In this document: positions 1-25,902 of the stretch, piece by piece
Numbering within the stretch: position 1 is the stretch's first letter
Layout of the letters: every line of letters begins with the position of its first letter
IMG/VR virus record: IMGVR_UViG_3300035660_000003
Coordinates: 86,261 to 112,412 of that record
Strand: one strand, 5' to 3'
DNA length: 26,152 nt
Origin: a virus
Program-made: the position numbers and the translations under genes
Notes under the pieces: generated by a model
The model's database searches: none
Told to the model about the DNA's origin: nothing
The model's input: only the letters and a program-made list of their open reading frames with translations

Positions 1-81
1 AACATCGCCTAATATCTTACTGTAATCACCAATATATCGTGCTTTAATTTTAGTTTTAGACGTATTGCTTGATATAATCAT
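1..81 (-). CDS. Possible 5' end of a further operon gene (partial)
   Basis: After the stop codon of the glycosyltransferase at 56-1282, one minus-strand frame stays open to the window edge for 27 codons. It starts at an ATG at 81-79, inside the 3' end of that gene. The peptide looks protein-like (it contains ARYIGDYSKILGDV), but it is too short to assign. The nearby purine-rich GGTGG is only a few bases from the ATG, so the start is doubtful. If real, it would be the sixth gene of the glycan operon. Confidence 0.3.
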   Translation of the reverse strand, partial: MIISSNTSKTKIKARYIGDYSKILGDV

Positions 82-2403: not shown

Positions 2404-2405
2404 TT

Positions 2406-3284: not shown

Positions 3285-4613
3285 TTAGACATCTCCTCGG
3301 AGTTCAATATTCTGGTTTTCATCCCAGTTGTTAGTATTTACCCACGGTGGTTTGAATTTACTTATGCAAGCCAATTGTTTTCCGCTTCTTGACCTTGCCA
3401 TTGCATCAACATAACGAACTTCAATGTCTATTCTGTCGGAGAAATGTTTAACCAACCTAGTGAAATCTGGAACATGGTTAATATCCCATGCCTTGACCAA
3501 GAGCATTGCTTTACCTTGTTCGTCTTGTTGAACTTGATGTGCTTCGATAAGCATTAGAAAATCTTTTATATCGTAATACATGGACTCGTTGAGTTCTGTC
3601 ATGTTGAGCCAACCATTTTGTTTAGTCCATAGATATTGAAGGGTGCGACCAACTATATTTTCCAGTAATAATAATCCTCTACCACACGAACATTGATGCT
3701 CGGAGTATTTGCCAACATCTCCATTTTCATAACGAACTAAAGGCATGGCATAATTTAACAAGTCTGTCCATATGAAACGTCCGTCTTTCATGGGTTGAAG
3801 AATGTAACGTTCCATAGTCAAATGGATACCTTCGTGTTTATAGCATTCCCCACCCATTGCACCTAAATCTTGTGAACCATAGTAATTGAATACTGGAACT
3901 TCGAATGCTTCATTTGTCAATTTGCGTATATCTTCAGATAATGGTTCACAGTTGTTTATAAAACACTTTAAAGTTGGAATTTTAATGTTATATTTCAAAG
4001 CATAGAAAGATAAACTTCTCATTGCCGAAGCATATGCACGTATCGAGTAGGGAGCAAATTCTTGTATTACACGAAGATAGTTCACAATCGTTTGCTCATT
4101 CACCATCTGTTCTATTGGACAGAACAACAACTCAATCTTTCCATAGGGATTTTTGCCAATGCTTCTGAACGGTTCAACTGGATGTGAACCACCATGACCC
4201 AGTTCTCCAGCACCCCAAACAACTGCTTGTCTTGTCCACGTCAAGTGTGGCTCAGTAACCCAAGACCATATTCTCAAATCAGTATTAGTAATTGGAGTCA
4301 TGTCTGAAGGTTTCTGAACATTGACTACTTCAGAAGTTCCACCAGTCCATATCTTGTAACTTGGAATCTGTTTAGCCCACAATATATCATAGTTATCGTG
4401 AATTTGTTTCTTTGTTAGAATAGGTATTTTCTTCAAATCATCGAGACTGGATACTGAGTCTGGTAGATAACTATAGAATGGACATGAATTCTTCGCATAT
4501 TTTATTAGTTCGTTGAGACCTTCTAATTGCAGAGTTTCAATCTCTTCTTTAGTCCACCATTGAGATTTATTAAGAAAATCGTAAGACAGTTTTTCTCGAT
4601 AATGACTTATCAT
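3285..4613 (-). CDS. CapK/PaaK-like adenylate-forming enzyme
   Basis: Adenylate-forming enzyme of the phenylacetate-CoA ligase / CapK / coenzyme F390 synthetase group, 442 residues, the family's usual length. The ATP-binding loop is IWTGGTSEV at 88-96, shortened from the usual TGGTTG. YYGSQDLG at 244-251 matches the YGSxE signature, with Asp in place of Glu. PLVRYENGDVG at 291-301 holds the ribose-binding Asp, and CSCGRG at 308-313 is typical of CapK proteins. CapK homologues sit in polysaccharide clusters, where their substrate is mostly unknown; here it lies among glycosyltransferases. It starts with an ATGA overlap with the upstream gene. A role in activating an acid for glycan acylation is inference. 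Confidence 0.85.
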   Translation of the reverse strand: MISHYREKLSYDFLNKSQWWTKEEIETLQLEGLNELIKYAKNSCPFYSYLPDSVSSLDDLKKIPILTKKQIHDNYDILWAKQIPSYKIWTGGTSEVVNVQKPSDMTPITNTDLRIWSWVTEPHLTWTRQAVVWGAGELGHGGSHPVEPFRSIGKNPYGKIELLFCPIEQMVNEQTIVNYLRVIQEFAPYSIRAYASAMRSLSFYALKYNIKIPTLKCFINNCEPLSEDIRKLTNEAFEVPVFNYYGSQDLGAMGGECYKHEGIHLTMERYILQPMKDGRFIWTDLLNYAMPLVRYENGDVGKYSEHQCSCGRGLLLLENIVGRTLQYLWTKQNGWLNMTELNESMYYDIKDFLMLIEAHQVQQDEQGKAMLLVKAWDINHVPDFTRLVKHFSDRIDIEVRYVDAMARSRSGKQLACISKFKPPWVNTNNWDENQNIELRGDV

Positions 4614-6556
4614 ATTTCCACCATGAATACTTGTTCATATTCTTTTACCATATGTTTCCATGCCCACCTATCTAAAACTTTCTCCAAATTTTGTTTACCA
4701 ACCCACTTTCTCATACTAGGATTATCCTTTAAATACTGAAGTTTCTCGTTAATCTGTTTCACCATTTCATCTTCTGATTCAATCGGAACTAACCATTCCT
4801 TATCTAAGAATTCTGGAACTCCACCCACACTTGTAGAAACAATTGGTAATCCACAAGCGGCGGCTTCCAAAACTGGTTGAGGCATCCCCTCATATTTGCT
4901 AACGTTTACGAGACAGTCTATTGATTCATAAAACTCGACCATTTCATCCCGTGTTCTGCCCTTCACAAAAAACTTCGGTTCATGTCTATTAATTATTTTT
5001 ACTGGAAACGCCAACCTATTAAGAATATAAAAACGTTTCGCTGGAGATTTAGAGTTTCCAACCCATCCAACAACAAATCTATCTTTTGATTCTTTTTTAG
5101 TTGGTTTAAATATTTCATCGTCAACTCCATTATGACATAAGAAAAGATTATCGGCATTACGTGATTTAAAATAGTCAAAACTTTCTTTTGTAACGCAAAG
5201 TGTTTTCCAACCGTTTATCGGTGAATCAATGCGACCCCAATATACTTGTCCACCCCTTATTCCAACACATTTATTTTTCACTTTATTTATCTCTGCCTTA
5301 ACTTCTTTGGAACAAGCATCATAACAACTGTAATTCATACTAAATATGACATCAGAATTTTTCACGTCTTCTATGGTAATATCACACCATTTCTTTATTA
5401 TACAGTCATGCCTACCATATTTTTGTATGCCTCTAGCCGCAAAATCGAATGCCCATCCATATTCATCAATTATGATTAAAATCTTGAACTTGTCTCTTCT
5501 TCTTTCTCTTCCCCTAGTTATTGCCAAATTATTGAGTTTTTGTCTCTCATTATCAGAAATTCCACAAGTTAAACTCATTTGTCCAGAATGTAAACGTCTA
5601 TGGAAAATGATTTTTGGAATGATTGGCAATTCATAGTTTTCAAGAACTCTTATTTTAAAATCTAAGTCGTCACCAAATTCATATTCTGGATTTCTGTATC
5701 CTATTCTCTCATAAGCAGTTTTTCTGATTAGTATGGTGGACTGGCATAAACAAGAATCTTCGTCAAAATTTCCATCGAAAATCTTCTTTTTATCTAACTT
5801 CTTATAACAATGTTCTACCCGCCAATTCGGGTCTTTAGAAAGACCACTTCTTGGAAAATTAGGGTCGTTAAATTCGTCATACCATCCACAAACCGCATAG
5901 AACCTGCTCTTATCGAGAAAGTTTACTAGATTTTCTATAGCATCAAGTTCTAAATAGTCATCTGAATCTAAATGAATAATAAAATCTCCAGAACTATTTC
6001 TTATTCCAATATTGATTGCGGATGGAAGATTCACGTTTGGAATAGCAATTAATTTTATTCGTTTGGGATATTTCTTTCTATACTCTTCAATTATTTCTGT
6101 ATCGTTACCTATGCTTCCATTGTCAACTATTACATGTGAAACATTTCTGTATGTCTGGTCTAAAACAGATTCGATACACTCTCTAAGGAATGGGTTTCCA
6201 TCTCTGTTCACAGTTATAACAGAAACCTTCGGAAGAGATTTATCAATCATGTGTCTCGTTTCATCTATTTTTTCCTCTTTCAGTCGCCTTATGATTTTTT
6301 GTTTCTCGGTTTCTTCAGCTATTTTTTTCCGTCGTAGTTCCTCTTCCCGAACTTTCAGTTTTTCTTCTTCTTCCTTTTCTCGTTTACGTCTTTCGTTTAT
6401 TTCCTTTTCTTCTTGTTTACCTTTTTCGTAACATCGAATACAGTAACCGCTATAATCGCTATCTTCGACAAAGCACATTGTATATCTTCCGCATCTTTTA
6501 CAGATTGACATTTCAGAATTCCCCATCAATTTCATTTTCAAACATCCAGTCCGCAT
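4610..6556 (-). CDS. Bifunctional GT2-GT4 glycosyltransferase with zinc ribbon and coiled coil
   Basis: A 648-residue fusion. C19/C22 and C39/C42 form a small zinc ribbon. Residues 45-105 are an extremely Glu/Lys/Arg-rich coiled coil. Residues 108-330 are a GT2 (GT-A) domain with VSVITVNRDG, the DSDD metal/nucleotide motif at 197-200 and GDDLDF near 295 as catalytic-acid region. Residues 357-640 are a GT-B domain with GWVGNSKSPAKRF and the EX7E motif E556/E564 (EGMPQPVLE) followed by AAACGLPIV. Each half is complete, so two sugar transfers by one protein are likely. It is the first gene of the glycan operon, with a TATA element 27 bases upstream, so the message is nearly leaderless. Met17 (MSICKRCG) is an alternative start. 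The zinc/coil part is unusual and may tether or oligomerise the enzyme. Confidence 0.88.
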   Translation of the reverse strand: MRTGCLKMKLMGNSEMSICKRCGRYTMCFVEDSDYSGYCIRCYEKGKQEEKEINERRKREKEEEEKLKVREEELRRKKIAEETEKQKIIRRLKEEKIDETRHMIDKSLPKVSVITVNRDGNPFLRECIESVLDQTYRNVSHVIVDNGSIGNDTEIIEEYRKKYPKRIKLIAIPNVNLPSAINIGIRNSSGDFIIHLDSDDYLELDAIENLVNFLDKSRFYAVCGWYDEFNDPNFPRSGLSKDPNWRVEHCYKKLDKKKIFDGNFDEDSCLCQSTILIRKTAYERIGYRNPEYEFGDDLDFKIRVLENYELPIIPKIIFHRRLHSGQMSLTCGISDNERQKLNNLAITRGRERRRDKFKILIIIDEYGWAFDFAARGIQKYGRHDCIIKKWCDITIEDVKNSDVIFSMNYSCYDACSKEVKAEINKVKNKCVGIRGGQVYWGRIDSPINGWKTLCVTKESFDYFKSRNADNLFLCHNGVDDEIFKPTKKESKDRFVVGWVGNSKSPAKRFYILNRLAFPVKIINRHEPKFFVKGRTRDEMVEFYESIDCLVNVSKYEGMPQPVLEAAACGLPIVSTSVGGVPEFLDKEWLVPIESEDEMVKQINEKLQYLKDNPSMRKWVGKQNLEKVLDRWAWKHMVKEYEQVFMVEI

Positions 6557-6582
6557 TCCTTTACTTTATATTCCAGTTCCAC

Positions 6583-6598
6583 TATTTAAGGTTTTCGG
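6583..6598 (-). promoter_or_regulatory. BRE/TATA promoter of the glycan operon
   Basis: On the minus strand CCGAAAACCTTAAATA matches the window-wide BRE/TATA consensus. Transcription should start about 23-25 bases downstream, 3-4 bases before the ATG at 6556, so the mRNA is nearly leaderless. Confidence 0.7.
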
Positions 6599-6647
6599 CA
6601 AATTGCTTTTGTCAACTTTTATTCTCTATCGCTAATAAAATATTAAT

Positions 6648-7628
6648 TTATCCGTTTTTCGTCCTCTTGACAATCTGGAAAAGTTTATTAATCAATTGAG
6701 TTGTGTCCATTATTCGCAAAACATTTTCCTTCCCATTTTTTGCCATTCTCAGCCAGAAATCTTCATCATTAAATAACCGTTCAATTAATTTCTTCTGTTT
6801 GTCATAGTCTCGATGTTTGGTATATAATTCTGGAAAGAATAATTTAACCGAAGGTGATGAACCAATACATGGAACATGAGCTAAAGCACATTCCATACCA
6901 AATCTCGACCATGCTTTATAGTTTTCATTATCATCGATGGCAATATAACATTTACGTAATAGAAACATGAATCCCTGTTGTGGCATCCGTCCCTGATGGG
7001 GCGTTGAATTAAAAATCTTGAAGGTGTGTGGTAGATTCTCTGGAAGTTTAATGGATGCGGATTTAACACTATGTTTGAGTAATGCAATGTTCCTCATTTT
7101 AGTTTTTAATTCTGCTTTACTGGGAAAGATTTGTAAATATTCCTTATATCTAACAAGTTGAGGCAAAAGCAAATGATATATTGATTTAGAACTTCTTTTC
7201 CTGATATATTGTTCCAAAAGTGGATTGTATTCAATATTCCATGCATCAATCACTTCTAATAAGCCACATTCATCAAGAAATTTTTCAGGTGACTTTCCCT
7301 TAGCCTCTGATGGTAAATCATTCCATGTATAGTGATTTGGAATAAAAAGCCACATGAAATCCATATCTTCTTGATATATTATTTTGGCATTTGGGGCGAT
7401 TTTACGTATTACAAATGGAAGTTTATACCATTTCCAACTAATATCGTGACCTACACATCTGACAAAGATTACATCGGCGTTCTTTATAAGTTCGTTTTCT
7501 GGGAAGACGGACGAATCAATAGTGACGAAATTAATCTTAAACTCTGAAGTGATATAATTCCTTAAAGCAATCTCCCATTGAAAGAAATTTTCCTGCGGAA
7601 GATTCATAACAAAACAAAGATTAATCAA
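6648..7628 (-). CDS. GT-B type glycosyltransferase-like protein
   Basis: Predicted glycosyltransferase of 326 residues. The N-terminus (INLCFVMNLP) and NADVIFVRCVG resemble the first strands of a GT-B fold. The last ~90 residues resemble group 1 transferases: IAIDDNENYKAWSRFGMECA, then ALAHVPCIGS and a helical tail (LIERLFNDEDFWLRMAKNG). The EX7E pair is not clear, so activity is less certain than for its neighbours. I place the start at a TTG (7628-7626) whose TTGA overlaps the TGA stop of the upstream HNH gene, with GAGG about 10 bases before it. A longer reading to 7694 would overlap the HNH gene by 70 bases and adds no family sequence. Its only visible promoter lies upstream of the HNH gene, so expression depends on that message. 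Confidence 0.65.
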   Translation of the reverse strand: MINLCFVMNLPQENFFQWEIALRNYITSEFKINFVTIDSSVFPENELIKNADVIFVRCVGHDISWKWYKLPFVIRKIAPNAKIIYQEDMDFMWLFIPNHYTWNDLPSEAKGKSPEKFLDECGLLEVIDAWNIEYNPLLEQYIRKRSSKSIYHLLLPQLVRYKEYLQIFPSKAELKTKMRNIALLKHSVKSASIKLPENLPHTFKIFNSTPHQGRMPQQGFMFLLRKCYIAIDDNENYKAWSRFGMECALAHVPCIGSSPSVKLFFPELYTKHRDYDKQKKLIERLFNDEDFWLRMAKNGKENVLRIMDTTQLINKLFQIVKRTKNG

Positions 7629-8119
7629 TGAAGAGTTCCCTCTTTCCTTTTTTGGTGTGGACAATATCCATAATGACCAATGGAACAATTGCAATTATAA
7701 CAGAGAACACGAAACCCTTCTGGAAAATCATTGGTTGAAAGCCATTGATACAAATTGCCATCTTTCCGCAATTTTGCATGTTTGTTTCCACCACCTTTTA
7801 TATGGTCTATTGTCAAAAATTCGATATGTGATTCATTACAGTTTGGACATGAGCATTTGGGTGGATTGCCACCATAATGAACTAGACATCGTAAACGAAG
7901 TTTTTGTCGAAAATGTTTTTGATAAACTTTAAATTTTTCTCGATTTCTTTCTTGATATTCTTTTCTTTGTTCAATAAGTCTTTCTTTGTTTTCTTTCCAA
8001 TATTTTTTGCTATATTCAGATACTTGTTGTTTGTGTCTAAAAATATATTCTTTGTGTTTTCTCAATATTTCCTCTTTGTTCTTTTCATACCAAAGATGAT
8101 TTCGTTCTTTTTTGTCCAA
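7625..8119 (-). CDS. HNH endonuclease with five 15-residue N-terminal repeats
   Basis: Free-standing HNH nuclease of 164 residues. Aromatic residues W10, Y25, Y40, Y55 and F70 mark five basic repeats with an exact 15-residue period (aromatic, then KNKE-like, then hydrophobic), probably a helical DNA-binding array. The nuclease domain follows: HYGGNPPKCSCPNC with the first zinc cysteines, TIDHIKGGGNKH with the catalytic His, VLCYNCN with the second Cys pair and Asn, and the closing CPH. The start is TTG, chosen because GGTGGAG lies about 8 bases upstream. It is first in an operon with a glycosyltransferase and has its own promoter. Most likely a homing-type selfish nuclease; a regulatory role is possible. 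A 36-base identical stretch is shared with the HNH gene at 15739-16269. Confidence 0.85.
   Translation of the reverse strand: MDKKERNHLWYEKNKEEILRKHKEYIFRHKQQVSEYSKKYWKENKERLIEQRKEYQERNREKFKVYQKHFRQKLRLRCLVHYGGNPPKCSCPNCNESHIEFLTIDHIKGGGNKHAKLRKDGNLYQWLSTNDFPEGFRVLCYNCNCSIGHYGYCPHQKRKEGTLH
7778..7813 (-). repeat. 36-bp direct repeat, copy 1
   Basis: These 36 bases are identical to 15889-15924. They encode the catalytic TIDHIKGGGNKH segment of two HNH genes whose N-terminal parts differ strongly, suggesting recent exchange or strong constraint on the core. Confidence 0.9.
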
Positions 8120-8155
8120 CTTGATTTCTCCACCATAACTAATATCGAGTTCTAC

Positions 8156-8171
8156 TATTTAAAACTTTTGT
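8156..8171 (-). promoter_or_regulatory. BRE/TATA promoter of the HNH-glycosyltransferase operon
   Basis: Minus-strand ACAAAAGTTTTAAATA fits the shared element. It contains the TAA stop of the lon gene (8161-8159). The expected start near 8133 leaves a leader with GGTGGAG ahead of the TTG at 8119. Confidence 0.65.
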
Positions 8172-10261
8172 TTCTCTTTAACACTTTTCTCTTCAACAAA
8201 AGCAATTTTTATGTAATCCTCTAAAGTTTCACATCCAATAACTTTTATTGTATATTCGTTTGGAATAATATCCTGTTCATAGTTTGTCTTAGGAATGACT
8301 ACTTCAGCAAATCCCCATCTTTGAGCCGCCATGATTTTTTCATGTGTTCCGCCAACAGCCGTAATAATTATTTTTCCGTCGATTCCAATGTTGATTTCTC
8401 CAGAAAATGCAATGTCTTGTCTGATTTTCTTATTCTGAATTATAGATAATAGTGCCAAAGTCATTGCAACGCCAGCACTTGGTCCTTCAACTCCATGTGC
8501 TTGAGCAAAATCTATATGAGTTCGTTTATCAAGTGGCGAAAATCCATACATTTGTTGAATTACATGAGCAACTTTAGAAATTGAATGTTGCATATAAGAT
8601 TCATCTTTTACAGCAACACCAGTTATATGGAAATATCCATCCTGTTTCTTTTTTACTTCTTCCATTGAAGCCCTAATTGGCAGGACTGAACCCATCATTT
8701 CATCTGCATTTGGGTCTTTTGTTATTGATAGACCATAGATTTGACCGATTTTAGGTTCAGATTTCGGATTAATTATCAGATAAACATTCTTTTCGGCGAC
8801 AAATCTTTCCAATACTTGTTGATATATTGATTTACAATGCACGTCTATGGCTTCACGGATATACTTAACATCAACTTCAGATTTACCTTCGTCTCTCGCC
8901 AATGTGCTTGCGGTCTTGATTATAGAAATTAATGGTCTGAATTTGGTCGTCAATTTATCTCTTCTTCCACTCTTTCTCCTAGATTCTTCAATCACTTCCA
9001 TACAGGATTCTCTGGTGAATGGTAAAAGATTGAACCGTTTAACCTCTTGAGAGATGAATTGAACGACTTTCTGACGATTTTCAATCGTGTTATCCATGTA
9101 ATTATTCATATAAACTGTCTTACCATAACCCTGAATACGGTCTAACAATGCTGCATGAATATTTGGCAGACTATCTAAGTTTCCTGCCGCTATAAAGAAT
9201 ACCATAGATGGAACTGGTTCGGTTGAAACTGCCATAGCCGCCGTATCTCCACCATGAAATAGACTTCTTAAAGCTATTGGAATTTGTCCCTCTTCAAGAA
9301 CTGTCAAAAGTGTAATTGCCTCTGCACCAGTCAAATTTTTAATCTCATCTATAAATAATATTCCTAAATGAGCACGATGCACGTCACCAGCACTAACTCT
9401 TTGATGTTCTGGAGTTCCTAAACCACCAGTCTGATATGGGTCCCAAGCAATCGAACCGAATAATTGTGCTGAACCATGTCCTGTAGCATCTATATAGGGA
9501 ACTCTTCCAGATGAATTATCAATCAATAATTTAGGAGCATCAGACCTTTCTGCTCCACCAATTCCTTGTGCGGGACCAACCCCACCCATCATTTTTCCAA
9601 ACCATCCTATCATGAAAGAGAAAAACAATAATGATGCTCCACCAATTACTAACGGTGCAACAAAAATGAATGTATTTAGAGGATTTTCTGATAAAACTAT
9701 AATGAACATTGATAAACCTATTAATGCCAATCCGAATCCCCCTAAGAATGTTCGTAGAATTCTCATTCCCCAACGTTGCCAAAATGATTTTTTTCCAATT
9801 TTCTGTGTTTGAATGGAAATTATTTCTTTTCCTTTACCTGCCTGATGAATACTGATTTTTGGTTCTGATGGTAGAGTTTTATTCTTCCAAGACAAAACAT
9901 CATAAAGTTTGATTTTGTGTTTCTTATAGATTTCAGTCATATAAGAAGACATGGCTCGACCAATCAAAGACTTTCCTGTGCCAGCATCGCCCAACAAAAG
10001 TAAGAAAGGTCCAGCAGGCAACCATTCTTTAGGTTGAGGTTTCAGTCCCATAGGGTCTTCAAAGGCTTTCCACCATTTCTTTTGTTTTAGATAAGTTAAT
10101 TTATGAACCCATTCGTCAATGCATAATCGACACTCTTGCATTGCCCTATCTTGCCCAATAATCCAATCTATTAATTGGTCTGAAACGGAAAATCCCAATG
10201 TGTTCTTAAAATCTTTCCATTTCCACTTTTCAGTATTATCACCAAAGTAATCATCAGTCAT
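8159..10261 (-). CDS. lonB: Membrane-anchored ATP-dependent Lon protease (LonB-like architecture)
   Basis: A 700-residue AAA+ serine protease that should degrade selected or unfolded proteins at the membrane. Order: Walker A GDAGTGKS (91-98), two membrane helices (about 168-190 and 196-220) between Walker A and B as in archaeal LonB, the LonB-type segment ending GGLGTPEHQRV, Walker B LGILFIDEI (299-307), Arg finger R375, then the S16 protease domain with catalytic S595 (VEGPSAGVA) and K642 (GGTHEKIMAA). The EGPSAG and SGEINI motifs are closer to bacterial LonA; cellular LonB usually has EGDSAS. The start is the ATG at 10261, with GGTG 5 bases upstream; a GTG at 10267 would add two residues. 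Lon is rarely virus-encoded; particle maturation or host-protein turnover are open options. Confidence 0.92.
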   Translation of the reverse strand: MTDDYFGDNTEKWKWKDFKNTLGFSVSDQLIDWIIGQDRAMQECRLCIDEWVHKLTYLKQKKWWKAFEDPMGLKPQPKEWLPAGPFLLLLGDAGTGKSLIGRAMSSYMTEIYKKHKIKLYDVLSWKNKTLPSEPKISIHQAGKGKEIISIQTQKIGKKSFWQRWGMRILRTFLGGFGLALIGLSMFIIVLSENPLNTFIFVAPLVIGGASLLFFSFMIGWFGKMMGGVGPAQGIGGAERSDAPKLLIDNSSGRVPYIDATGHGSAQLFGSIAWDPYQTGGLGTPEHQRVSAGDVHRAHLGILFIDEIKNLTGAEAITLLTVLEEGQIPIALRSLFHGGDTAAMAVSTEPVPSMVFFIAAGNLDSLPNIHAALLDRIQGYGKTVYMNNYMDNTIENRQKVVQFISQEVKRFNLLPFTRESCMEVIEESRRKSGRRDKLTTKFRPLISIIKTASTLARDEGKSEVDVKYIREAIDVHCKSIYQQVLERFVAEKNVYLIINPKSEPKIGQIYGLSITKDPNADEMMGSVLPIRASMEEVKKKQDGYFHITGVAVKDESYMQHSISKVAHVIQQMYGFSPLDKRTHIDFAQAHGVEGPSAGVAMTLALLSIIQNKKIRQDIAFSGEINIGIDGKIIITAVGGTHEKIMAAQRWGFAEVVIPKTNYEQDIIPNEYTIKVIGCETLEDYIKIAFVEEKSVKEKQKF

Positions 10262-10293
10262 GCTCACACCTGAGAGTAGAAAGTAATTCGAAG

Positions 10294-10309
10294 TATAAAA
10301 AGTTTACGT
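10294..10309 (-). promoter_or_regulatory. BRE/TATA promoter of lon
   Basis: Minus-strand ACGTAAACTTTTTATA fits the consensus. The expected start is near 10271, leaving a ~10-base leader that holds the GGTG ribosome binding site. It is divergent from the HNH promoter at 10333-10348. Confidence 0.65.
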
Positions 10310-10332
10310 TGAAATATAAAAAAATCTTTTCG

Positions 10333-10348
10333 CCATAAAGTTTAAATA
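10333..10348 (+). promoter_or_regulatory. BRE/TATA promoter of the plus-strand HNH gene (leaderless)
   Basis: CCATAAAGTTTAAATA ends 23 bases before the ATG at 10371, so transcription should begin at or next to the start codon. No ribosome binding site precedes the ATG, in agreement with a leaderless message. Confidence 0.75.
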
Positions 10349-10370
10349 GTTCGTTATCTATACTATAAGT

Positions 10371-10853
10371 ATGATATGTCAGATATGCAAAAAGCAATTC
10401 AGTCCAAGTAAATATAATAAAGTCCGTCAGAAATATTGTAGTTTAACGTGTCGAAAAATTGGATTAAGAGAAAATTACCAGCGTAATTCTAAAAGATATT
10501 GGCGAAAACATAAAAAAGAATATCTCAAAAACATTGAAAGGAGCAAAATGAGACTAAAGAAGTTACAATTGCAATATCGCTTTGAAGTTCTTATTCATTA
10601 TGGTGGCAATCCGCCTAAATGTTCTTGCTGTGGCGAAGATAATATCCTTTTTCTTACTATAGACCATATTCACGGTGGTGGAGAAAGTGACCGTAAAAAA
10701 TTAAAAGGAAGTAATTTTTATAAGTATCTAATTGACAAGTGTTTTCCAGACGGATTTCAGGTATTATGTTCTAACTGCAATATGGCAAAAGGAAGGAACA
10801 AAGTTCAATTCTGTCCTGTCCATCATCCAGAACAATATAAAATTGAAGTTTAA
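10371..10853 (+). CDS. HNH endonuclease with N-terminal zinc finger
   Basis: HNH nuclease of 160 residues and the only one on the plus strand. Its catalytic domain matches its paralogues: LIHYGGNPPKCSCCG, LTIDHIHGGGES, VLCSNCN and FCPVHH. Its N-terminus differs. In place of the 15-residue repeat array there is a zinc finger (C3, C6, C23, C27) followed by a single repeat-like unit (RYWRKHKKEYLKN). It lies between the divergent lon promoter and the 3' end of mcm, and its last four bases overlap the convergent mcm stop. The message is predicted to be leaderless. Likely a mobile homing-type nuclease whose binding module has been swapped; the target site is unknown. Confidence 0.85.
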   Translation: MICQICKKQFSPSKYNKVRQKYCSLTCRKIGLRENYQRNSKRYWRKHKKEYLKNIERSKMRLKKLQLQYRFEVLIHYGGNPPKCSCCGEDNILFLTIDHIHGGGESDRKKLKGSNFYKYLIDKCFPDGFQVLCSNCNMAKGRNKVQFCPVHHPEQYKIEV

Positions 10854-12850
10854 CTCGTTGTTCTATAGCAGTTCAAGGTCGGTCTCATAATTACTCCTTT
10901 ATTTAGCAATTCTGAGATGATTTTATTGACATAGCCTTCCAAACCGAGATTTTTAGCGATTTGAAGTAATTCGCCGTGAGAAATTCCTGTAGTGTGGTCA
11001 TTTCCCTGATTATCTCTAATAATTTGCAAAATCTGAGACTCTGCTTTTTCTCTAGTTCCTTTACCAGTCTCAATGATTTCCATATTAAATTTAACACTAT
11101 CGAGAAAGACATTGAAAATCTTTTTAGTTGCTTCGGCATCGGATACATCCGCTATTGGTTTGAGTAGAATTCTAGCATGAGCCTCACAAATCCGTCTCAG
11201 GGCTTCAAACTGTCTATAAAAAATTGAAATTGTTCCTTGATTATCGTTACCGTTTTGCATATGTTTTCTAATCGACAGAAAATAATCATTCAAAATTTTT
11301 CTAGCCTCTGGAGAGACTTCGGGTTTGACTCTTTTTGCATATGCAATATATTTCTTAAATAATTCACGGTCTATTCTCTTGGACTTCTCCTTCTCTTCCT
11401 CACCCCAAATATGTTGAATTACTTTTTCGTCAAGAGATTCATCTGGTTTGTCGATTACTATAAAAATCAAATCAAATCTACTGAATAATGTGGGCGGAAA
11501 ACTTGATAGATTATCCAATACGCTTTTATATGGGTCATATCTACCACTTAACGGGTTAGCCGCTGCTATGATTGAAGTTCGAGCTTTCAGGGTTGCATGA
11601 ACACCCGCCTTATTTATTGAAATGATTTGTTGTTCCATCGCTTCATGGATATTCACTCGGTCTTCTGCCTTCATTTTGTCAATTTCATCGATACAGGCTA
11701 CGCCATTATCTGATAAGACCAGAACCCCCGCCTCAATCATCCATTCACCAGCATCATTTTTAGTCATAGCTGCCGTTAAACCAGCCGCAGTTACGCCTTG
11801 ACCGCTTGAATACATTCCTCTTGGAGATAGTTCCGCAGTTGCTCTTAAAAGTTGACTTTTGGCTGTGCTTGGGTCCCCAACAAAAAGAACGTGGATATTC
11901 CCTCGAATATTGATTTCTCGTTTTCTATCTACTCCGCCAAAAAGACTCAATAGACATGCTTCCTTCTCCATTTTATGACCATAGATGGATGGAGCAACAT
12001 TATCTATAAGAATCTGATAAATATCTGGCTGACTACTTAATTCCTGAATTTCCAATTCTTCTTCAGGCGTTATTTCAATTGATTCTGGGTCTTTACTTTT
12101 CTTATTAATTCCTAAAATATCGAGATAAATTTCATTGAATTTGGATTTGACTCTTCCTTTATACATTGTCGTTAGTTTTACTAATCCAATTACTTCTACT
12201 TCATCTCCGCAATTAACTTTATTTATAAGATGTTGCAATCTAATGAACATGGAAATTCGTTGAGGAACTCTACTTGAAATATCTTCATGCAACTCTTGAA
12301 GGGCGAATTCTTGACTATCTATGGCATCGCTTTCTGATTCTACTGGGTCAAAAAGTCGATGTTTGGATTTACAACCATTACATACTTTTTGTGGAAGACT
12401 TAAAGCCAATGGACTTTCCTGATGGATTGGAGATGTTTCCTCTCCACATTCTCTGCATTTAAAAGTTACATTTAAATACATTGGTCTAACAAATGATAAT
12501 CTGTTGACCAGACCTCTCACCTTAATGGTTTTTCCGACTTGTTTTGCTCCAATATTATGTAGTTTAGTAAATGGGATGGTTTTCTCGTCCATGAACCCGA
12601 TTTGAACTTCATTCCCATCTTTCGAATTACAACTTGCAATGGCTATCGCATCAACCATAGCCTTTTGAAAATCATCGAATGCCCCTCTTTCTGGTGATTC
12701 TATTAACATGGTAGTATAATTCGTATCCCATTGCATCATTTCATCAATGCTAAAAATGATGAAGTTTTTATTCTCATCAATGAGTTCTTTAATATAATGC
12801 TTGTGTTCATCTCTTGCAAAGAATTCCTTAAAGGGGTCAATCATACTCAT
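10850..12850 (-). CDS. mcm: MCM replicative helicase
   Basis: Archaeal-type minichromosome maintenance helicase of 666 residues, which unwinds DNA ahead of the polymerase as a hexamer. The N-terminal domain carries a zinc ribbon (C132, C135, C157, C160). The AAA+ domain has Walker A GDPSTAKS (325-332), Walker B CIDEID (386-391), sensor-1 Asn in AANPLSGRYDP (near 432) and Arg finger R458 in LFSRFD. A C-terminal winged-helix domain (about 600-664) is present. All catalytic residues are intact and no intein is inserted. The ATG at 12850 is preceded by AAGGTTAG about 7 bases upstream. Its own promoter lies at 12885-12900. With PolB, it gives the virus much of its own replisome. Confidence 0.97.
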   Translation of the reverse strand: MSMIDPFKEFFARDEHKHYIKELIDENKNFIIFSIDEMMQWDTNYTTMLIESPERGAFDDFQKAMVDAIAIASCNSKDGNEVQIGFMDEKTIPFTKLHNIGAKQVGKTIKVRGLVNRLSFVRPMYLNVTFKCRECGEETSPIHQESPLALSLPQKVCNGCKSKHRLFDPVESESDAIDSQEFALQELHEDISSRVPQRISMFIRLQHLINKVNCGDEVEVIGLVKLTTMYKGRVKSKFNEIYLDILGINKKSKDPESIEITPEEELEIQELSSQPDIYQILIDNVAPSIYGHKMEKEACLLSLFGGVDRKREINIRGNIHVLFVGDPSTAKSQLLRATAELSPRGMYSSGQGVTAAGLTAAMTKNDAGEWMIEAGVLVLSDNGVACIDEIDKMKAEDRVNIHEAMEQQIISINKAGVHATLKARTSIIAAANPLSGRYDPYKSVLDNLSSFPPTLFSRFDLIFIVIDKPDESLDEKVIQHIWGEEEKEKSKRIDRELFKKYIAYAKRVKPEVSPEARKILNDYFLSIRKHMQNGNDNQGTISIFYRQFEALRRICEAHARILLKPIADVSDAEATKKIFNVFLDSVKFNMEIIETGKGTREKAESQILQIIRDNQGNDHTTGISHGELLQIAKNLGLEGYVNKIISELLNKGVIMRPTLNCYRTTS

Positions 12851-12884
12851 TAGTCTAACCTTACTTATTTTATATAAATCCGTA

Positions 12885-12900
12885 TATTTAAATGTTATGT
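12885..12900 (-). promoter_or_regulatory. BRE/TATA promoter of mcm
   Basis: Minus-strand ACATAACATTTAAATA fits the consensus, with an expected start near 12862. A second TATA-like TTTATATAAA (12868-12877) could serve a leaderless start. TGATTAATCCA, also found before the portal promoter, lies directly upstream. Confidence 0.65.
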
Positions 12901-12904
12901 TGGA

Positions 12905-12920
12905 TTAATCAATTGATTAA
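12905..12920. promoter_or_regulatory. 16-bp perfect palindrome upstream of mcm
   Basis: TTAATCAATTGATTAA reads the same on both strands and sits a few bases upstream of the mcm BRE. It may be a dimer-binding operator. AT-rich palindromes also arise by chance, so this is tentative. Confidence 0.35.
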
Positions 12921-12951
12921 ACGGTGGGCTGCATTAAAATCTCGACAAAAT

Positions 12952-13209
12952 TCAGCCATTAATCAGTTTAAGAATTTGCGGAAACCATTGTGACAGCACG
13001 CCGAGAATACTTAAACCAAAGACTGAAATAATCAGCCATTTTAACCAGTCGATGTCTTTTTTCATCGATGATGTTTGTTCATCTAATTTTTTATGTAAAG
13101 CAAAAAATTCAACAGCTACGGCTTTTTCAAATGGTGTTCTAGCCAGTTTAAAAATCTCATCTGGACAATCGCTGTATTCATCAATCAATTTCTTAAAATC
13201 ATCTTCCAT
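12952..13209 (-). CDS. Small membrane protein of unknown function
   Basis: An 85-residue protein that I do not recognise. The first ~50 residues are acidic and helical (MEDDFKKLIDEYSDCPDE), followed by a short possible coiled coil (ALHKKLDEQTSSMKKDIDWL). One C-terminal membrane helix follows (WLIISVFGLSILGVLSQWF), with the last residues just beyond it. This layout resembles small phage XhlA/holin-accessory proteins, but no signature confirms it. I use the ATG at 13209; a longer frame would overlap polB. GTGA lies 5 bases before the ATG, and a TATA element at 13243-13258 gives an ~11-base leader. It sits between polB and mcm, so a role in membrane attachment of replication is as possible as one in lysis. 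Confidence 0.6.
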   Translation of the reverse strand: MEDDFKKLIDEYSDCPDEIFKLARTPFEKAVAVEFFALHKKLDEQTSSMKKDIDWLKWLIISVFGLSILGVLSQWFPQILKLING

Positions 13210-13242
13210 AGTATTCACGCATATAAATAGGTGCGAAACCAA

Positions 13243-13258
13243 CTTATAAACTTTATGG
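13243..13258 (-). promoter_or_regulatory. BRE/TATA promoter of the small membrane protein gene
   Basis: Minus-strand CCATAAAGTTTATAAG shares CCATAAAGTTTA exactly with the plus-strand HNH promoter at 10333. The expected start is near 13220. Confidence 0.6.
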
Positions 13259-13277
13259 AAGGATAATACAATAACAG

Positions 13278-15758
13278 TTAATTTTGATTCATCCAATTGT
13301 CCATCCGAGTTACGCCCAAAATATCTTTCTCGAAAGACAAGTTTAGCGAGTCCAGAATTTGTTCGAATGTGGTGCGGAGATATTCGATGTATTTTTCAAC
13401 ATCAATATCTTCGGTTTTAGCAAGTTCAAGAGGCTTCACATTTTCGCCTCTACACAGTTTTGGATTAACCTTCACAAACTTTATCGAAGAACCAATTCCA
13501 ATATCCTCAGAATTCAACATTTTAGCCGCCCGAACGTGTTGAGGAATTCCTTTTTCAGTTCGTTCTCCTTTCTCATTTGCCTTACCATATTCCGATATTT
13601 CTTTTGTAATACCAACATTAAATGCCAAATCTGCAAGATTACTCCACTTTCTTTCTTTCAAGATTCTATAGTTAAATTTCAGTAAATCAATTATTTTATG
13701 TTTGGCTAGAGTCATATCCTGTTCAGAATTAACCTGCGACAATATTACTTTGGTATTGTCAAAGGCATTCTTGATAATCGGCGGAGTATGTTTCTTTTTG
13801 CCTGTTAGTCCTTTGACATCCACGAATCCATCTTCGAGAACTCCGAGATAGTTCTTTTTTCTTTCGGATAAACATACATAGCGATAAGATTTATCCAATT
13901 CAAATTCGATGTCAAATTCCTGTTTAGCCCAAGCAATTAATTGGTCTAATACTTCTTTAAGCGGATTCTTAATGAAAATACTATCAGTATCGCCGTAAAG
14001 AATTTCCAAACCTAATTCTTGACCGTGTTGAATTGTCTGACCAATAATATGCCTTCCAATTGCCGTAACCTCTTCAGCCGCTGGTGGACAATACATTTCG
14101 AAACTTTCTGAACCAAAGACTCCGTAACTGGCATTCATAATAACTTTAATTGACTGTTCAGCCACACCATACCATGTCTGAAGTGATTTTGGAAGTTCTT
14201 TATCTTTGGCTTTCTTTTTATACCAATTCACACGCAAATCCCGAAGAGACCCAATCAACATACTTTCAAGTGACCTCTCTTTCAAACACATCCAATGCGG
14301 AAGTTCGCCCACAGTATTGGATTTACATTCTTCATGAGGGCAGTTAATCGTTGAATAGCCAATGTTATAGACTTTTATAATCGAGGGATATAGACTGGCA
14401 AAATCTCCGACTTTGACATTGAAATGTATTCCACTCTTTGGGGGAATTACTGTTGCACCTTTATATTTTTTGCCCTTAACTACTGCTGTAGAAGATGTTA
14501 CGCCCTTCATGGTCTTAATTTCATCGGCGTTTGGAATCAAAAAGTTCCTTTTACGATGTTCATAGGTCAGAAAACTTAGAATCCAACTTGAAACGGATTT
14601 TCTTGAAACGTTCTCGATTGGCATTCTGCTCATTCGGTTAAGAACTAGCATCAAGTTCATGACTAGATTATCATTGAATGTGGTTAATTCTAAGGTTAGT
14701 TCAGCATCACGCATACAATAAGTAATCAATTCAAAATATGATAGGTCGTTAACCCATCTACCAGTCTGGATTTTGCCTTTATTAATTAATGCCTTTGAAA
14801 TAGTATCCAAATCAATGGTTTTATATTTTTGCTGAAAAGCATAGATTTGCATTGCTCGAATGAAAAAGAATTTGTATAGGTCAATATGAATTCCCTTGGT
14901 TAATAAAGTAATCCTATCTCTTACTTCAATTGGGATTTCTGATTCTGGAATTCCGAGTCGCAATGCCCGCACAGCAAGATATTTTAGGTCGAAGTCATCA
15001 CCGTTAAAAGTTATTATGAATGGATATTCATCGAATAAATGGAAAATCATTTTGATGAGTTCGACTTCGGATGAGAAAAATATAGTTTGTGTGCAAGAAT
15101 CTGGATAAATATCCAAGACCTTATTTTCTCGAAGTAGTATAAGTGCAATTCGTTCCCCAGTATTCGAAGCCAGACATGCACACAAAATCGGTAAATTGGC
15201 ACTTTCAGCATTCGGGATTTTTTCCCCAACATTCATAATCTCTAAATCCAAACTTGCCCTCTTGAAATTGGGAGCAGAATATTCGAGCAACCTTGCCCAT
15301 GTCTCGAAACAACTCTTGTCACTTTCATTAATTTTCATTAATTTCAGAACTTGTTCAACACGTTTTTCCGCCTCTGAATCTGTCACGAATTCTAATTTGC
15401 CATCCTTCCTTTGGTATGGCATTCCCATCATAATATTCTTGTCGTAAATATATCCTTGGAAAAACTTAACGTGATTTTCATAGACCTGTGGCATTCCATG
15501 AGTTTGTTTAACATATGATGGATATGCCAAATATGTCTTGTTCATTGTCACATTTTCATGTTTAAGAGCATCATATTTAATGACCTCTTCCGAATTTATC
15601 ACGCCTTTAATTGGCTGACTAAGTTTGATACTCGACAAGAAATATGCTTTATAATCTATATCAGTCCATTCTTCGATTTGCTGAGTTTCATCATTATACA
15701 ATTTTAGGCAGATTGCGTTGAGGGCAGAATTGTAGCTACTACTTACTATGTAAAGCAT
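13278..15758 (-). CDS. polB: Family B DNA polymerase with proofreading exonuclease
   Basis: Replicative DNA polymerase of 826 residues. All exonuclease motifs are present: Exo I SLDLEI (D171, E173), Exo II FNGDDFD (D257) and Exo III YCMRD (Y347, D351). All polymerase motifs are present: A DFASLYPSI (D452), B KVIMNASYG (K538 to G546) and C YGDTDS (588-593). No intein interrupts the active-site motifs. I choose the ATG at 15758 (MLYIVSSSYN, with GGAG 9 bases upstream), which overlaps the upstream HNH gene by 20 bases; a GTG at 15773 would add five residues. No separate promoter is visible, so polB seems to be read from the promoter in front of the HNH gene and translated by coupling. Confidence 0.96.
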   Translation of the reverse strand: MLYIVSSSYNSALNAICLKLYNDETQQIEEWTDIDYKAYFLSSIKLSQPIKGVINSEEVIKYDALKHENVTMNKTYLAYPSYVKQTHGMPQVYENHVKFFQGYIYDKNIMMGMPYQRKDGKLEFVTDSEAEKRVEQVLKLMKINESDKSCFETWARLLEYSAPNFKRASLDLEIMNVGEKIPNAESANLPILCACLASNTGERIALILLRENKVLDIYPDSCTQTIFFSSEVELIKMIFHLFDEYPFIITFNGDDFDLKYLAVRALRLGIPESEIPIEVRDRITLLTKGIHIDLYKFFFIRAMQIYAFQQKYKTIDLDTISKALINKGKIQTGRWVNDLSYFELITYCMRDAELTLELTTFNDNLVMNLMLVLNRMSRMPIENVSRKSVSSWILSFLTYEHRKRNFLIPNADEIKTMKGVTSSTAVVKGKKYKGATVIPPKSGIHFNVKVGDFASLYPSIIKVYNIGYSTINCPHEECKSNTVGELPHWMCLKERSLESMLIGSLRDLRVNWYKKKAKDKELPKSLQTWYGVAEQSIKVIMNASYGVFGSESFEMYCPPAAEEVTAIGRHIIGQTIQHGQELGLEILYGDTDSIFIKNPLKEVLDQLIAWAKQEFDIEFELDKSYRYVCLSERKKNYLGVLEDGFVDVKGLTGKKKHTPPIIKNAFDNTKVILSQVNSEQDMTLAKHKIIDLLKFNYRILKERKWSNLADLAFNVGITKEISEYGKANEKGERTEKGIPQHVRAAKMLNSEDIGIGSSIKFVKVNPKLCRGENVKPLELAKTEDIDVEKYIEYLRTTFEQILDSLNLSFEKDILGVTRMDNWMNQN

Positions 15759-16269
15759 GAGGACACACTCCACTATTTCGTTTGCCCCAATTACAATTCA
15801 TACATAATACTTGATAACCTTCAGGATAACCGTTTTTAACGAGCCAATAATAAAAACTATAACCCATACTTAAATTAAGCGATTTTTTATGTTTGTTTCC
15901 ACCACCTTTTATATGGTCTATTGTAAGAAACTCTATAATTGTTTCGCCACAGCAGGCACATTTAGGTGGATTACCACTATAATGAATAAGCACTTTCACT
16001 TTTAATTGTAACCGTTTCTGAGAAACAGCGTCTTTATTCTTTTGATACCATCGTTTTAGTATCTCTTTAATTTTTTCTTTATTGGCATCTCGATATTTTT
16101 TCTCTCGTTGAAGAATTTTTTCTCGGTTTTTCTGATAATACCGTTTTTTTATTTCTCTGTCTTTTTCTGGATTGTTTTTCCGCCATATTTTCATATAATC
16201 ATTTAATTTTTTAGAATTTTGACGTTGGTAATTCCGCATATATTGTTTATGCTTTTCGATATCCATCAT
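15739..16269 (-). CDS. HNH endonuclease with five 15-residue repeats, overlapping polB start
   Basis: HNH nuclease of 176 residues. Y14, W29, Y44, Y59 and W74 mark five basic repeats with an exact 15-residue period (for example RYYQKNREKILQREK). The catalytic domain has HYSGNPPKCACCG, TIDHIKGGGNKH, VLCMNCNWGK and GVCPH. It starts with a double Met at 16269 behind a TATA element at 16304-16319. Its TAG stop lies inside the polB reading frame, 20 bases past the polB ATG. The nuclease therefore leads the polymerase operon. Free-standing nucleases next to replication genes commonly cut the matching allele lacking them; that, or control of polB, would fit. It shares 36 identical bases with the HNH gene at 7625-8119. 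Confidence 0.87.
   Translation of the reverse strand: MMDIEKHKQYMRNYQRQNSKKLNDYMKIWRKNNPEKDREIKKRYYQKNREKILQREKKYRDANKEKIKEILKRWYQKNKDAVSQKRLQLKVKVLIHYSGNPPKCACCGETIIEFLTIDHIKGGGNKHKKSLNLSMGYSFYYWLVKNGYPEGYQVLCMNCNWGKRNSGVCPHALHSK
15889..15924 (-). repeat. 36-bp direct repeat, copy 2
   Basis: Identical to 7778-7813. It encodes TIDHIKGGGNKH of the HNH active site, and the flanking codons differ immediately outside it. Confidence 0.9.
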
Positions 16270-16303
16270 TATACAACTTCAAATTATATGGTAGAAATTG
16301 TAG

Positions 16304-16319
16304 TATATAAGGTTTTCGG
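16304..16319 (-). promoter_or_regulatory. BRE/TATA promoter of the HNH-polB operon
   Basis: Minus-strand CCGAAAACCTTATATA is nearly identical to the glycan-operon promoter at 6583-6598 (one T/A difference). The expected start is near 16281, giving a leader of about 11 bases. Confidence 0.7.
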
Positions 16320-16345
16320 TTCTGATTTTTAATAGTTAAAATTGC

Positions 16346-16361
16346 CCATAATCCTTATATA
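16346..16361 (+). promoter_or_regulatory. BRE/TATA promoter of the GNAT operon
   Basis: CCATAATCCTTATATA fits the consensus. Transcription should begin near 16384, about 8 bases before the ATG at 16392. It is divergent from the HNH-polB promoter 27 bases away. Confidence 0.7.
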
Positions 16362-16391
16362 TCGGCAAGTATTAATCTCTTTGTGGTTTAG

Positions 16392-16790
16392 ATGAAAGTA
16401 ATAATAGAATTTGATTCGGGTGGAACATGTCACCTGATGCGTGACGGAAAACAAATAGGCGAAACATTATTCATGGAACATAGAACCCAAATAACTATTA
16501 CAGATGCGAATGTTGACGAAGAATTTCAGAGGAAAGGATATGGACGGATTATGTTAAAAGCTATAATGCGATATGCTCAAGAAAAAATGAAACCAATTTA
16601 TCTCTATTCACTTGAGGATGCCGTCCCATTTTATGAAGCACTTGGTTTTTGCCGAATAAAGAAATGGACTGGCACGTGTGAGATTTTCATTAAAAATTTG
16701 AATCCTGAGAAACCCAAAGAAAAACAAATAGACGACACGGACATGATTTGGATTCCAAAGGGGAAGAAAAAGGCTACAGTTTATATCTAG
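16392..16790 (+). CDS. GNAT-family N-acetyltransferase
   Basis: Acetyl-CoA dependent acetyltransferase of 132 residues. TDANVDEEFQRKGYGRIMLKAI contains motif A (Q/RxxGxG as QRKGYG, about residues 51-56), which binds the CoA pyrophosphate. PFYEALGFCRIKKW near residues 77-90 is the usual FYExxGF motif B. The strand order fits a compact GNAT. The C-terminal ~30 residues (rich in Lys and Pro) are an extension without recognisable fold. The substrate cannot be predicted. It is the first gene of a plus-strand pair in an otherwise minus-strand region; its TAG stop touches the GTG start of the next gene, so the two are probably translated together. Confidence 0.88.
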   Translation: MKVIIEFDSGGTCHLMRDGKQIGETLFMEHRTQITITDANVDEEFQRKGYGRIMLKAIMRYAQEKMKPIYLYSLEDAVPFYEALGFCRIKKWTGTCEIFIKNLNPEKPKEKQIDDTDMIWIPKGKKKATVYI

Positions 16791-17258
16791 GTGAAACGTG
16801 TGCAGGTATTCATTAGATTGAAAGTTGGACAGGAAGAAAGGTTATCTAAAACTTTGAATTATACTTATGTTCCAGAGTCATCAATTAAAGTGAAGGTCTT
16901 ACCTGTTCCTGAATTTATTAAAGATGCCGTTTGTAAATCCTGTAAACAGCCAGCAAAATTCATGTTGGAAGATATGACTTTGACCTGTCAACCTTGTCTG
17001 GAACAAATCCTAAAATCGGTTTCAACATTGGAAAAGAAAGAAGATACGCTTGTGCCGTTGACCGAGGAAACCCTTGCAAAAATGAAGTTTGAATGGTCAA
17101 CCGAACGTGAACGTTGGTATTCAATTCGTGGAATTGGACTAAAACCTAAGAATATGAAAGACTTTTTGGAAGTCATTAAAAAGGTCTTTATAGGTGGACA
17201 ATTTCTAGTTTGCGAAGCAGATTATAATAAGGACAAAAAAGAACTCCAGATAAGTTAA
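16791..17258 (+). CDS. Zinc-ribbon protein of unknown function
   Basis: A 155-residue protein that I do not recognise. The N-terminal ~35 residues form a strand-rich segment (VQVFIRLKVGQE). A zinc ribbon follows, with C48/C51 and C66/C69 spaced by 14 residues. After a charged linker, the C-terminal part has mixed strand and helix (WSTERERWYSIRGIGLK, then FLEVIKKVFIGGQFLVCEAD). The GTG start follows the TAG stop of the GNAT gene with no gap, which points to reinitiation. The tight pairing suggests a partner or substrate of the acetyltransferase, but this is inference. It ends 8 bases before the convergent HNH gene. Confidence 0.7.
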   Translation: MKRVQVFIRLKVGQEERLSKTLNYTYVPESSIKVKVLPVPEFIKDAVCKSCKQPAKFMLEDMTLTCQPCLEQILKSVSTLEKKEDTLVPLTEETLAKMKFEWSTERERWYSIRGIGLKPKNMKDFLEVIKKVFIGGQFLVCEADYNKDKKELQIS

Positions 17259-17266
17259 ATATTCCT

Positions 17267-17836
17267 TCATTCTTTATTTTCATGCCGTTTTATCCAATTG
17301 CAATTAGCACAGAGAAGTTGATAGTTCTTTGAACCGCTTTTCAGTTGTTCAAGAACATAAATATAAAATCTTTTTGGACTACCAAATGATTTTATTTCTT
17401 TACATCCGCCACCGCTAATGTGGTCTATCTGTAAACATCTAATATCTGAACAACCATTAGAGACAAGACAACTAGGATTGTTACACTTATTGCCGAGAAG
17501 TTCGAATATTTGCCCCCTCAATTGGGCGTATTCCATCTGATGTTTCTTGTTTATTTTTTCTTTGTTTTTGTTATAGTGAGCACGTATTAAATTTATGTGT
17601 TCTTCATAATATTTCTTGGCGTGTATTTTCTGTTCCTCTTTGTGTTTTTCATAATATTTTTTTCTCCACGCTTTGATTTTTTCTTTGTTTTTATTATAGT
17701 ATTTTCGTGCAGATTTGTTAGCAGATTCCTTGTGCTGCAAATAATATTCATGATTTCTCATCATGATTTCTTTTTTGTGTTTTTGATAGTATTTTCGAAC
17801 AGTTTCTCGGTGTTTTTCATTTTTGACATTCATCAT
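17267..17836 (-). CDS. HNH endonuclease with 15-residue repeats (diverged paralogue)
   Basis: HNH nuclease of 189 residues. Its N-terminus is the clearest example of the repeat array: paired tyrosines at 16/17, 31/32, 46/47, 61/62 and 76/77, exactly 15 residues apart, in units such as RKYYNKNKEKIKAW, plus a shortened last unit near Y88. The nuclease core is diverged from the other three: LLGNKCNNPSC, LQIDHISGGGCKE and LLCANCNWIKRHE, without the NPPKC loop and the closing CPH. The ATG at 17836 has GTGA about 7 bases upstream, and a promoter lies at 17869-17884. It is monocistronic and converges on the GNAT operon. Likely selfish, from an older branch of the family. Confidence 0.85.
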   Translation of the reverse strand: MMNVKNEKHRETVRKYYQKHKKEIMMRNHEYYLQHKESANKSARKYYNKNKEKIKAWRKKYYEKHKEEQKIHAKKYYEEHINLIRAHYNKNKEKINKKHQMEYAQLRGQIFELLGNKCNNPSCLVSNGCSDIRCLQIDHISGGGCKEIKSFGSPKRFYIYVLEQLKSGSKNYQLLCANCNWIKRHENKE

Positions 17837-25377: not shown

Positions 25378-25902
25378 TCATTCTTCTTTCCTTTTAATTT
25401 TCAAAGTTTTAAATGGTGGATTTTTCAAATATTGAATTGCTCTCTCAATGCCTTCTAAATTATCTCCTAACAATCCAAGACCCTTGTTACATTTTTGACA
25501 AAGGAATCCTCGTGGTTCATTTGTTTTATGGTCGTGGTCAAACTCAAGATAATGTTTATTTCTTTCTTTTTGTGCCATGCTTCCACAGATTCCGCATCTG
25601 TGATGTTGAATTTCCAATAATACATCCCCATCATTAAGAGATAATCCGAATTCAGAAAATTTGTTTTTTCTCGTTCTAATACTCCTTCTCTCTTTATAAA
25701 ATGGTTCTTGTCGATATTTTGCATCACTTTCTACTTTCCATTTTTTATGAATTTTGACCCAGTTTTTGGTATTTTCTCTTTGACGTTGAGCAAAATCTGG
25801 ATTAATTTTTCTAAGATTTTTTTCATAGCAATTTCTACACATCCCTTTAGCATAATAAGATAATTCTGGATGACATGATGGTTTCTTAATATTTCTAATC
25901 AA
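25378..25902 (-). CDS. Recombination endonuclease VII-like HNH nuclease
   Basis: A 174-residue nuclease of the endonuclease VII / HNH type. A short N-terminal Cys/His region (C10, H11, C22, C25) resembles the zinc knuckle often seen ahead of such nucleases, followed by a basic helical stretch. The catalytic zinc-finger domain has C103/C106, C135/C138 and the YLEFDHDHKT metal site (D122, H123, D124, H125), then NKGLGLLGDN. T4 endonuclease VII resolves branched DNA before packaging; many homologues are uncharacterised. It differs from the four other HNH proteins here: no NPPKC loop and no 15-residue array. The start is TTG at 25902. The promoter overlaps the stop of the gene before it, and a perfect palindrome covers the predicted transcription start. 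Confidence 0.82.
   Translation of the reverse strand: MIRNIKKPSCHPELSYYAKGMCRNCYEKNLRKINPDFAQRQRENTKNWVKIHKKWKVESDAKYRQEPFYKERRSIRTRKNKFSEFGLSLNDGDVLLEIQHHRCGICGSMAQKERNKHYLEFDHDHKTNEPRGFLCQKCNKGLGLLGDNLEGIERAIQYLKNPPFKTLKIKRKEE

Follow-up and report, generated by a model that had tools for sequence, protein, structure and literature searches.

Four HNH proteins (A to D) of a large virus, whose host is probably archaeal, carry in front of the catalytic core an arm made of basic 15-residue units. This arm, NUMOD-like and prone to diversify, most likely directs nucleases of the homing type to their DNA targets. They are encoded in the window, the whole stretch of 26,152 bases analysed here, which corresponds to positions 86261-112412 of the 112,412-base virus record IMGVR_UViG_3300035660_000003. 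On balance, we favour the reading that A to D are mobile homing-type HNH nucleases situated between replication genes, with the basic array arm carrying much of the target recognition. Since the same array is found on unrelated cutting domains and changes faster than the cutter, it probably helps to decide where these mobile nuclease genes cut DNA; that the array nucleases bind DNA, contact its bases, cleave it and home is our inference. The coordinates that a preliminary description of this DNA had assigned to the ORFs of A, B, C and D were right, and its list of nucleases in the window was incomplete, as an Endonuclease_7 protein at 25378-25902 had been missed. The relevant features are as follows.

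7625..8119, minus strand: HNH protein A, 164 aa, with a four-unit N-terminal array and a degenerate fifth unit, followed by an HNH core of the FLTIDHI..GGG type
7913..8092, minus strand: array of A, residues 10-69, in 15-residue units
8159..10267, minus strand: LonB-type protease gene, between A and D
10371..10853, plus strand: HNH protein D, 160 aa, with a zinc finger, a two-unit array remnant and a core of the type found in A and B
10377..10451, plus strand: zinc finger of D (C3/C6/C23/C27, residues 3-27); PHROG matches span the finger and the core
10473..10562, plus strand: array remnant of D, two units, residues 35-64, with N39 and N54 15 apart
10850..12850, minus strand: MCM helicase gene, adjoining D
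13278..15773, minus strand: family B DNA polymerase gene (polB), adjoining B
15739..16269, minus strand: HNH protein B, 176 aa, five units; the final bases of the gene overlap the polB start
16006..16230, minus strand: array of B, residues 14-88
16392..16790, plus strand: GNAT acetyltransferase gene, on the far side of B from polB and a landmark of the empty site
17267..17836, minus strand: HNH protein C, 189 aa, six units with spacing 15, 15, 15, 15, 11
17531..17791, minus strand: array of C, residues 16-102
25378..25902, minus strand: fifth nuclease of the window, of the Endonuclease_7 family (Pfam PF02945, E=1.6e-17), without a 15-residue array

Nuclease cores and insertion sites

The core of C (LQIDHISGGG..YQLLCANCNWIKR) differs in type from that shared by A, B and D. 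Residues C104, C107, D118, H119, C156, C159 and N160 are invariant in the B family, whose model has the beta-beta-alpha elements (strands and helix) at 115-119, 152-156 and 157-165, and C118, D138, C176, C179 and N180 are invariant in the C family with H139 nearly so; both families belong to the HNH (beta-beta-alpha metal) nucleases. Pfam HNH matched B only with E=0.29, below the cut-off, and none of A to D rose above the cut-off for recombination endonuclease VII (PF02945). In fold comparison, the HNH core alone weakly resembles the Gme HNH nicking endonuclease (PDB 4h9d; VIA Z 4.1, 67 residues, rmsd 4.2), and the array is left unmatched. The C-terminal HNH domain of the array nucleases would be the part that nicks or cuts. 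Outside the window, at least seven further genes of the HNH type lie on the virus record, and in some of them longer arrays are joined to a core of another kind.

Insertion sites were compared with a related 93.7 kb virus contig (L222, IMGVR_UViG_3300005573_000073), which was found by MCM alignment, a single-sequence search with polB having retrieved no relatives. In their best segments, the polB, LonB and MCM of the two viruses are 45%, 57% and 38% identical, respectively, and small genes by polB are also in common. At the B site polB and GNAT are 90 bases apart in L222, and at the D site MCM and LonB are about 50 bases apart. Thus, B and D occupy sites that are empty in a relative, which is the mark of freestanding homing endonucleases, and with the same flanking genes on either side both are insertions beside the MCM, LonB and polB genes. 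For the A site the comparison with L222 is one-sided, C lies at a rearranged junction, and no Rfam match pointing to an intron association was found in the virus record. A very improbable alternative holds that the nucleases are resident viral enzymes serving packaging, recombination or the exclusion of competitors rather than mobile genes; the presence of several copies per genome is in keeping with it, as is the ability of phage HNH proteins to serve packaging, but the B and D sites are empty between conserved neighbours and neither B nor C finds a match in the L222 record, which may be incomplete. Phage freestanding homing endonucleases are described to insert near essential genes, replication genes among them (PMC10448857).

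Several other features of the two viruses were observed. The L222 LonB gene (9937-15042, plus strand) has 1701 codons, its length being accounted for by three inteins with LAGLIDADG parts; the window LonB is without inteins, but has the HNH genes A and D on either side. One end of the window, by the viral replication genes, contains at 56-7694 a sugar-modification block (glycosyltransferases, a DegT-type aminotransferase and an epimerase-like protein), whose genes were named by eye except for the glycosyltransferase at 4610-6556. Big tail- or adhesin-like proteins with repeated modules are encoded at 19131-21580, and like stretches occur in L222 at 853-2775.

The 15-residue unit and its predicted structure

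Marker aromatic residues at 10/25/40/55/70 in A, 14/29/44/59/74 in B and 16/31/46/61/76 in C are indeed at the positions described earlier, and the 15-residue period is real, with lag-15 aromatic pairing exceeding residue shuffles in A (p=0.016) as well as in B and C (0 of 20,000 shuffles reaching the observed value). When self-similarity was averaged over HNH relatives from other viruses, collected by homology, lags 15 and 30 gave the only peaks, and the period is common to unrelated viruses and not peculiar to the virus of the window. When units are counted by the Asn/His at position 5, the best-conserved residue of the unit, rather than by the aromatic, the five repeats originally attributed to each of A, B and C hold for B, but A has four with a degenerate fifth and C has six (H20, H35, N50, H65, H80 and N91, the final step being 11 residues and not 15). 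Protein D had been portrayed as having exchanged its array for a zinc finger; its cysteines at 3/6/23/27 are present and its catalytic core is kept, but two units (N39 and N54) persist behind the finger. As the combination of a zinc ribbon or finger with an array and a nuclease is common elsewhere, D is a short-array member rather than a case of array replacement. No tandem repeat matching the arrays was found at the DNA level, and tandem DNA duplication was rejected as the origin of the period. A 30-residue superperiod was considered and found not convincing, lag 30 being slightly above lag 15 in some arrays.

The consensus of the unit is [YW]1-x3-[NH]5-[KRP]6-[ED]7-K8-[IVL]9…K14, and its statistics were drawn from two sets, 88 units in 25 proteins and 417 distinct units. 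Tyr/Trp is present at position 1 in almost nine-tenths of units, and Asn/His at position 5 in 92% of the 88 units and in more than nine-tenths overall. Position 6 is Lys/Arg, or Pro in 24% of the 88-unit set, as compared to about 0-1% Pro at other positions. In the 88-unit and 417-unit sets, respectively, position 7 is acidic in 68% and 85%, position 9 hydrophobic in 72% and 82%, and position 14 basic in 77% and 84%. The net charge is about +2.5 per unit (417 distinct units), and the helical-wheel charge moment, a single-vector test, was not significant (p=0.43). Spacing was measured in a set of 64 array proteins that a synthetic consensus array had retrieved, where the step between successive [YW]...[NH] motifs is 15 (261 cases), 11 (27), 19 (13) or 30 (21, equal to two units), with the remaining values at most 4 each and shuffles giving about 1 each. 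Units thus vary by plus or minus four residues, about one helical turn, so that the conserved residues keep roughly one face. The 11-residue units are without positions 12-15, and the number of units per array ranges from 3 to 16.

Structure prediction with AlphaFold2 gave B (23-sequence alignment) a pLDDT of 94.8, with helices at 4-17, 19-32, 34-47, 49-62, 64-77 and 79-98, the helix being broken at unit residue 5 in all five units (N18, N33, N48, N63 and N78). In the model of C (35-sequence alignment; pLDDT 96.4), residues 2-49 form one helix and breaks are found only at residues 50, 65 and 91, each of which is also Asn/His-5. The preliminary description had named a single continuous coiled coil as the outcome that would speak against it; the helices of B break at every unit, while the helix of C is mostly continuous, and regular breakage at each unit is therefore not a general feature of the models. 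An Asn/His with Lys/Pro and Glu after it is a common way for a helix to begin. Accordant with this, the array may consist of short helices in series, with each 15-residue unit contributing one that begins at a conserved Asn/His cap. When a Foldseek match was re-examined, 59 residues of the B arm were aligned, at an rmsd of 17 A, to the long helix of a coiled coil, which implies that the arm as modelled is strongly curved, bends of long helices in AlphaFold models being at times spurious (PMC11676326). Foldseek with the B and C models gave no confident match, another fold comparison mainly covers the HNH core, and a profile search for a solved relative of the array gave nothing better than E=0.65.

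An arm that acts in oligomerisation or as a rigid spacer, as a right-handed coiled coil or a single charged helix that does not bind DNA, would fit the spacings of 11, 15 and 19, a hendecad/pentadecad series that belongs to right-handed coils, and the helix predicted throughout by AlphaFold2. We give little credence to this reading, since the charge of about +2.5 per unit, the conserved Asn/His and the frequent helix-start Pro are unusual for the core of a coil, the helices predicted for B are broken and the recognisable partners of the array are almost always nucleases. The preferred reading is instead that the array forms a basic, extended arm which would run along the DNA and bear much of the target recognition.

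Partners and divergence of the array

One of the features that argues for a modular arm is the range of its partners. Three kinds of core follow the array within the virus record that includes the window: the A/B/D type, the C type and, as the third, one with the pattern CHEIHGK..C..CHRTLH (G000:46446-47006 and 5648-6280, plus shorter ones); a search with a third-core protein of this record found no viral relative. Elsewhere, in viral as well as cellular genomes, the neighbours of the array are endonuclease VII, GIY-YIG or other HNH types; it can also occur alone, and a zinc ribbon often precedes it. A search with nothing but the array gave 68 array proteins, in which the Pfam partners were HNH (6), GIY-YIG (6), Endonuclease_7 (5) and HNH_5 (4), with HNH_3, HNH_4 and NUMOD4 once each and additional HNH types recognised by motif, and no Pfam family covers the array. 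NUMOD profiles of Pfam gave this one NUMOD4 match in all when the five window nucleases, further viral copies and the 68 array proteins were taken together. Hence, the initial framing as an HNH family is too narrow for an array that also occurs with non-HNH nucleases or by itself. An array-only tblastn of a phage collection returned nothing, probably owing to the BLAST low-complexity filter.

Individual arrays were also observed in other settings. Outside the window, G000:C1:46446-47006 (minus strand) has seven near-perfect 15-residue units before the third HNH-like core, which is without a Pfam match. The array proteins of L119:1108-1989, with 16 units, and L139:1450-2007 end, in place of a nuclease, in a common small domain with function unassigned (..YI..LL.....L...DIPQGLIE.KR..I.I.R.IK), and L199:1351-1941, on a Lokiarchaeota MAG contig (Asgard archaeal assembly), encodes a zinc finger and a ten-unit array with no nuclease. 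A helix-turn-helix partner in L197 was a weak match only (E=0.28) and was not used.

The array also diverges faster than the core. When proteins with related cores were compared pairwise, conservation was lower in the N-terminal part in 173 of 174 pairs. At near-identical loci of viral contigs (L145/L160, L126/L160, L126/L145, L159/L162, L123/L162 and L123/L159), nucleotide identity is 98-99.8% in downstream DNA and 92-96% in the core, with array protein identity of only 59-84% and units gained or lost in some; array identity is below core identity in 21/21 pairs. Across five pairs (L145/L160, L126/L160, L176/L192, L159/L162 and L123/L162), pN/pS was 0.82 in the array and 0.37 in the core, and within the array 0.23 at positions 1, 5, 6, 7 and 14 and 1.31 at the others. 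In six pairs, changes concentrate at unit positions 13, 9, 10 and 12, and position 13, where the residue is mostly N/Q/K/R/S/H/T, differed in 17 of 24 cases (p=1.6e-4); these pN/pS and position tests rest on few codons, on pairs that share members and on alignment within repeats. Alleles from separate assemblies give equal values (for example L167 and L168, L145 and L146), which argues against misassembly.

Faster change of the array could reflect relaxed constraint instead of retargeting. Under such an explanation, the array would bind DNA or RNA electrostatically only and keep the nuclease near nucleic acid, and the target would be chosen by the HNH core or by the zinc finger. Its high net positive charge, the range of unit numbers and the existence of some relatives of the C-type core with little or no array lend this a certain credibility, but strong retention of residues 1, 5 and 7 beside positions with pN/pS of about 1.3 is patterned rather than general relaxation and residue types often seen to contact bases are frequent at the most variable position, and hence we regard it as unlikely. 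At the other extreme, a TALE-like, zinc-free code, in which superhelical 15-residue helices lie in the DNA groove with the hypervariable positions 13, 9, 10 and 12 reading bases, seems quite improbable; were it true, gain, loss or exchange of units would reprogram a viral nuclease. We do not favour a strict repeat-to-base code, although it is possible, because the spacing varies by four residues and 11-residue units are without positions 12-15. The simplest account, given the partners, the charge, the patterned variation and the gene mobility, is a homing-type nuclease with a diversifying helical arm, in which the conserved residues 1, 5, 7 and 14 would hold the framework, and the variable residues 9, 10, 12 and 13 together with the unit number may provide new target preferences with the nuclease unchanged. 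The earlier proposal, in which the array is modular and determines the target, thus gains indirect support from the junctions to unrelated nuclease folds and from the faster divergence, through whole units gained or lost and through amino-acid changes, and loses the overstated swap in D.

Comparison with known targeting arms

Up to now, no model matching the unit was found in Pfam or NCBIfam, and within the literature searched, with preprints and most subscription papers outside its scope, the motif strings were not found and no such repeat was described in HNH proteins. PHROGs families of endonuclease VII and HNH proteins (phrog_1035, phrog_7091 and phrog_17714) have profiles that cover parts of array proteins, but their array matches are unannotated or named for the nuclease only, phrog_17714 being of unknown function. 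If the preferred reading is true, the array would constitute a widespread, uncatalogued DNA-targeting repeat that is combined with several kinds of nuclease and diversifies faster than the nuclease. It would also supply natural pairs with the same nuclease and different arms (L145/L160, L126/L160 and L123/L162) in which to ask whether a helical repeat reads DNA, name the candidate residues and explain quick target change of viral homing nucleases.

In phage homing enzymes, the nuclease is as a rule joined to DNA-binding regions that are elongated and modular (PMC3943268). As in the NUMOD-bearing phage homing endonucleases I-TevI and I-HmuI (PMC3943268, PMC1564403), a small nuclease is tethered in the array proteins to such a region, the catalytic parts are of the HNH or GIY-YIG kind and the genes are often near essential genes. 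However, the array is not NUMOD by Pfam (NUMOD4 in 1 of 68), and consists of an exact zinc-free 15-residue helical unit that is mostly N-terminal to the nuclease. The T5orf172 homing endonucleases likewise have repeated DNA-binding modules and lie near essential genes, and fast retargeting through repeat recombination has been proposed for them (PMC10448857), but their modules are separately folded zinc fingers, whereas the units described here are 15-residue helices in an unbroken chain. Thus, the concept is already known through NUMODs and repeated zinc fingers, and it is this particular 15-residue arm that has most likely not been catalogued previously.
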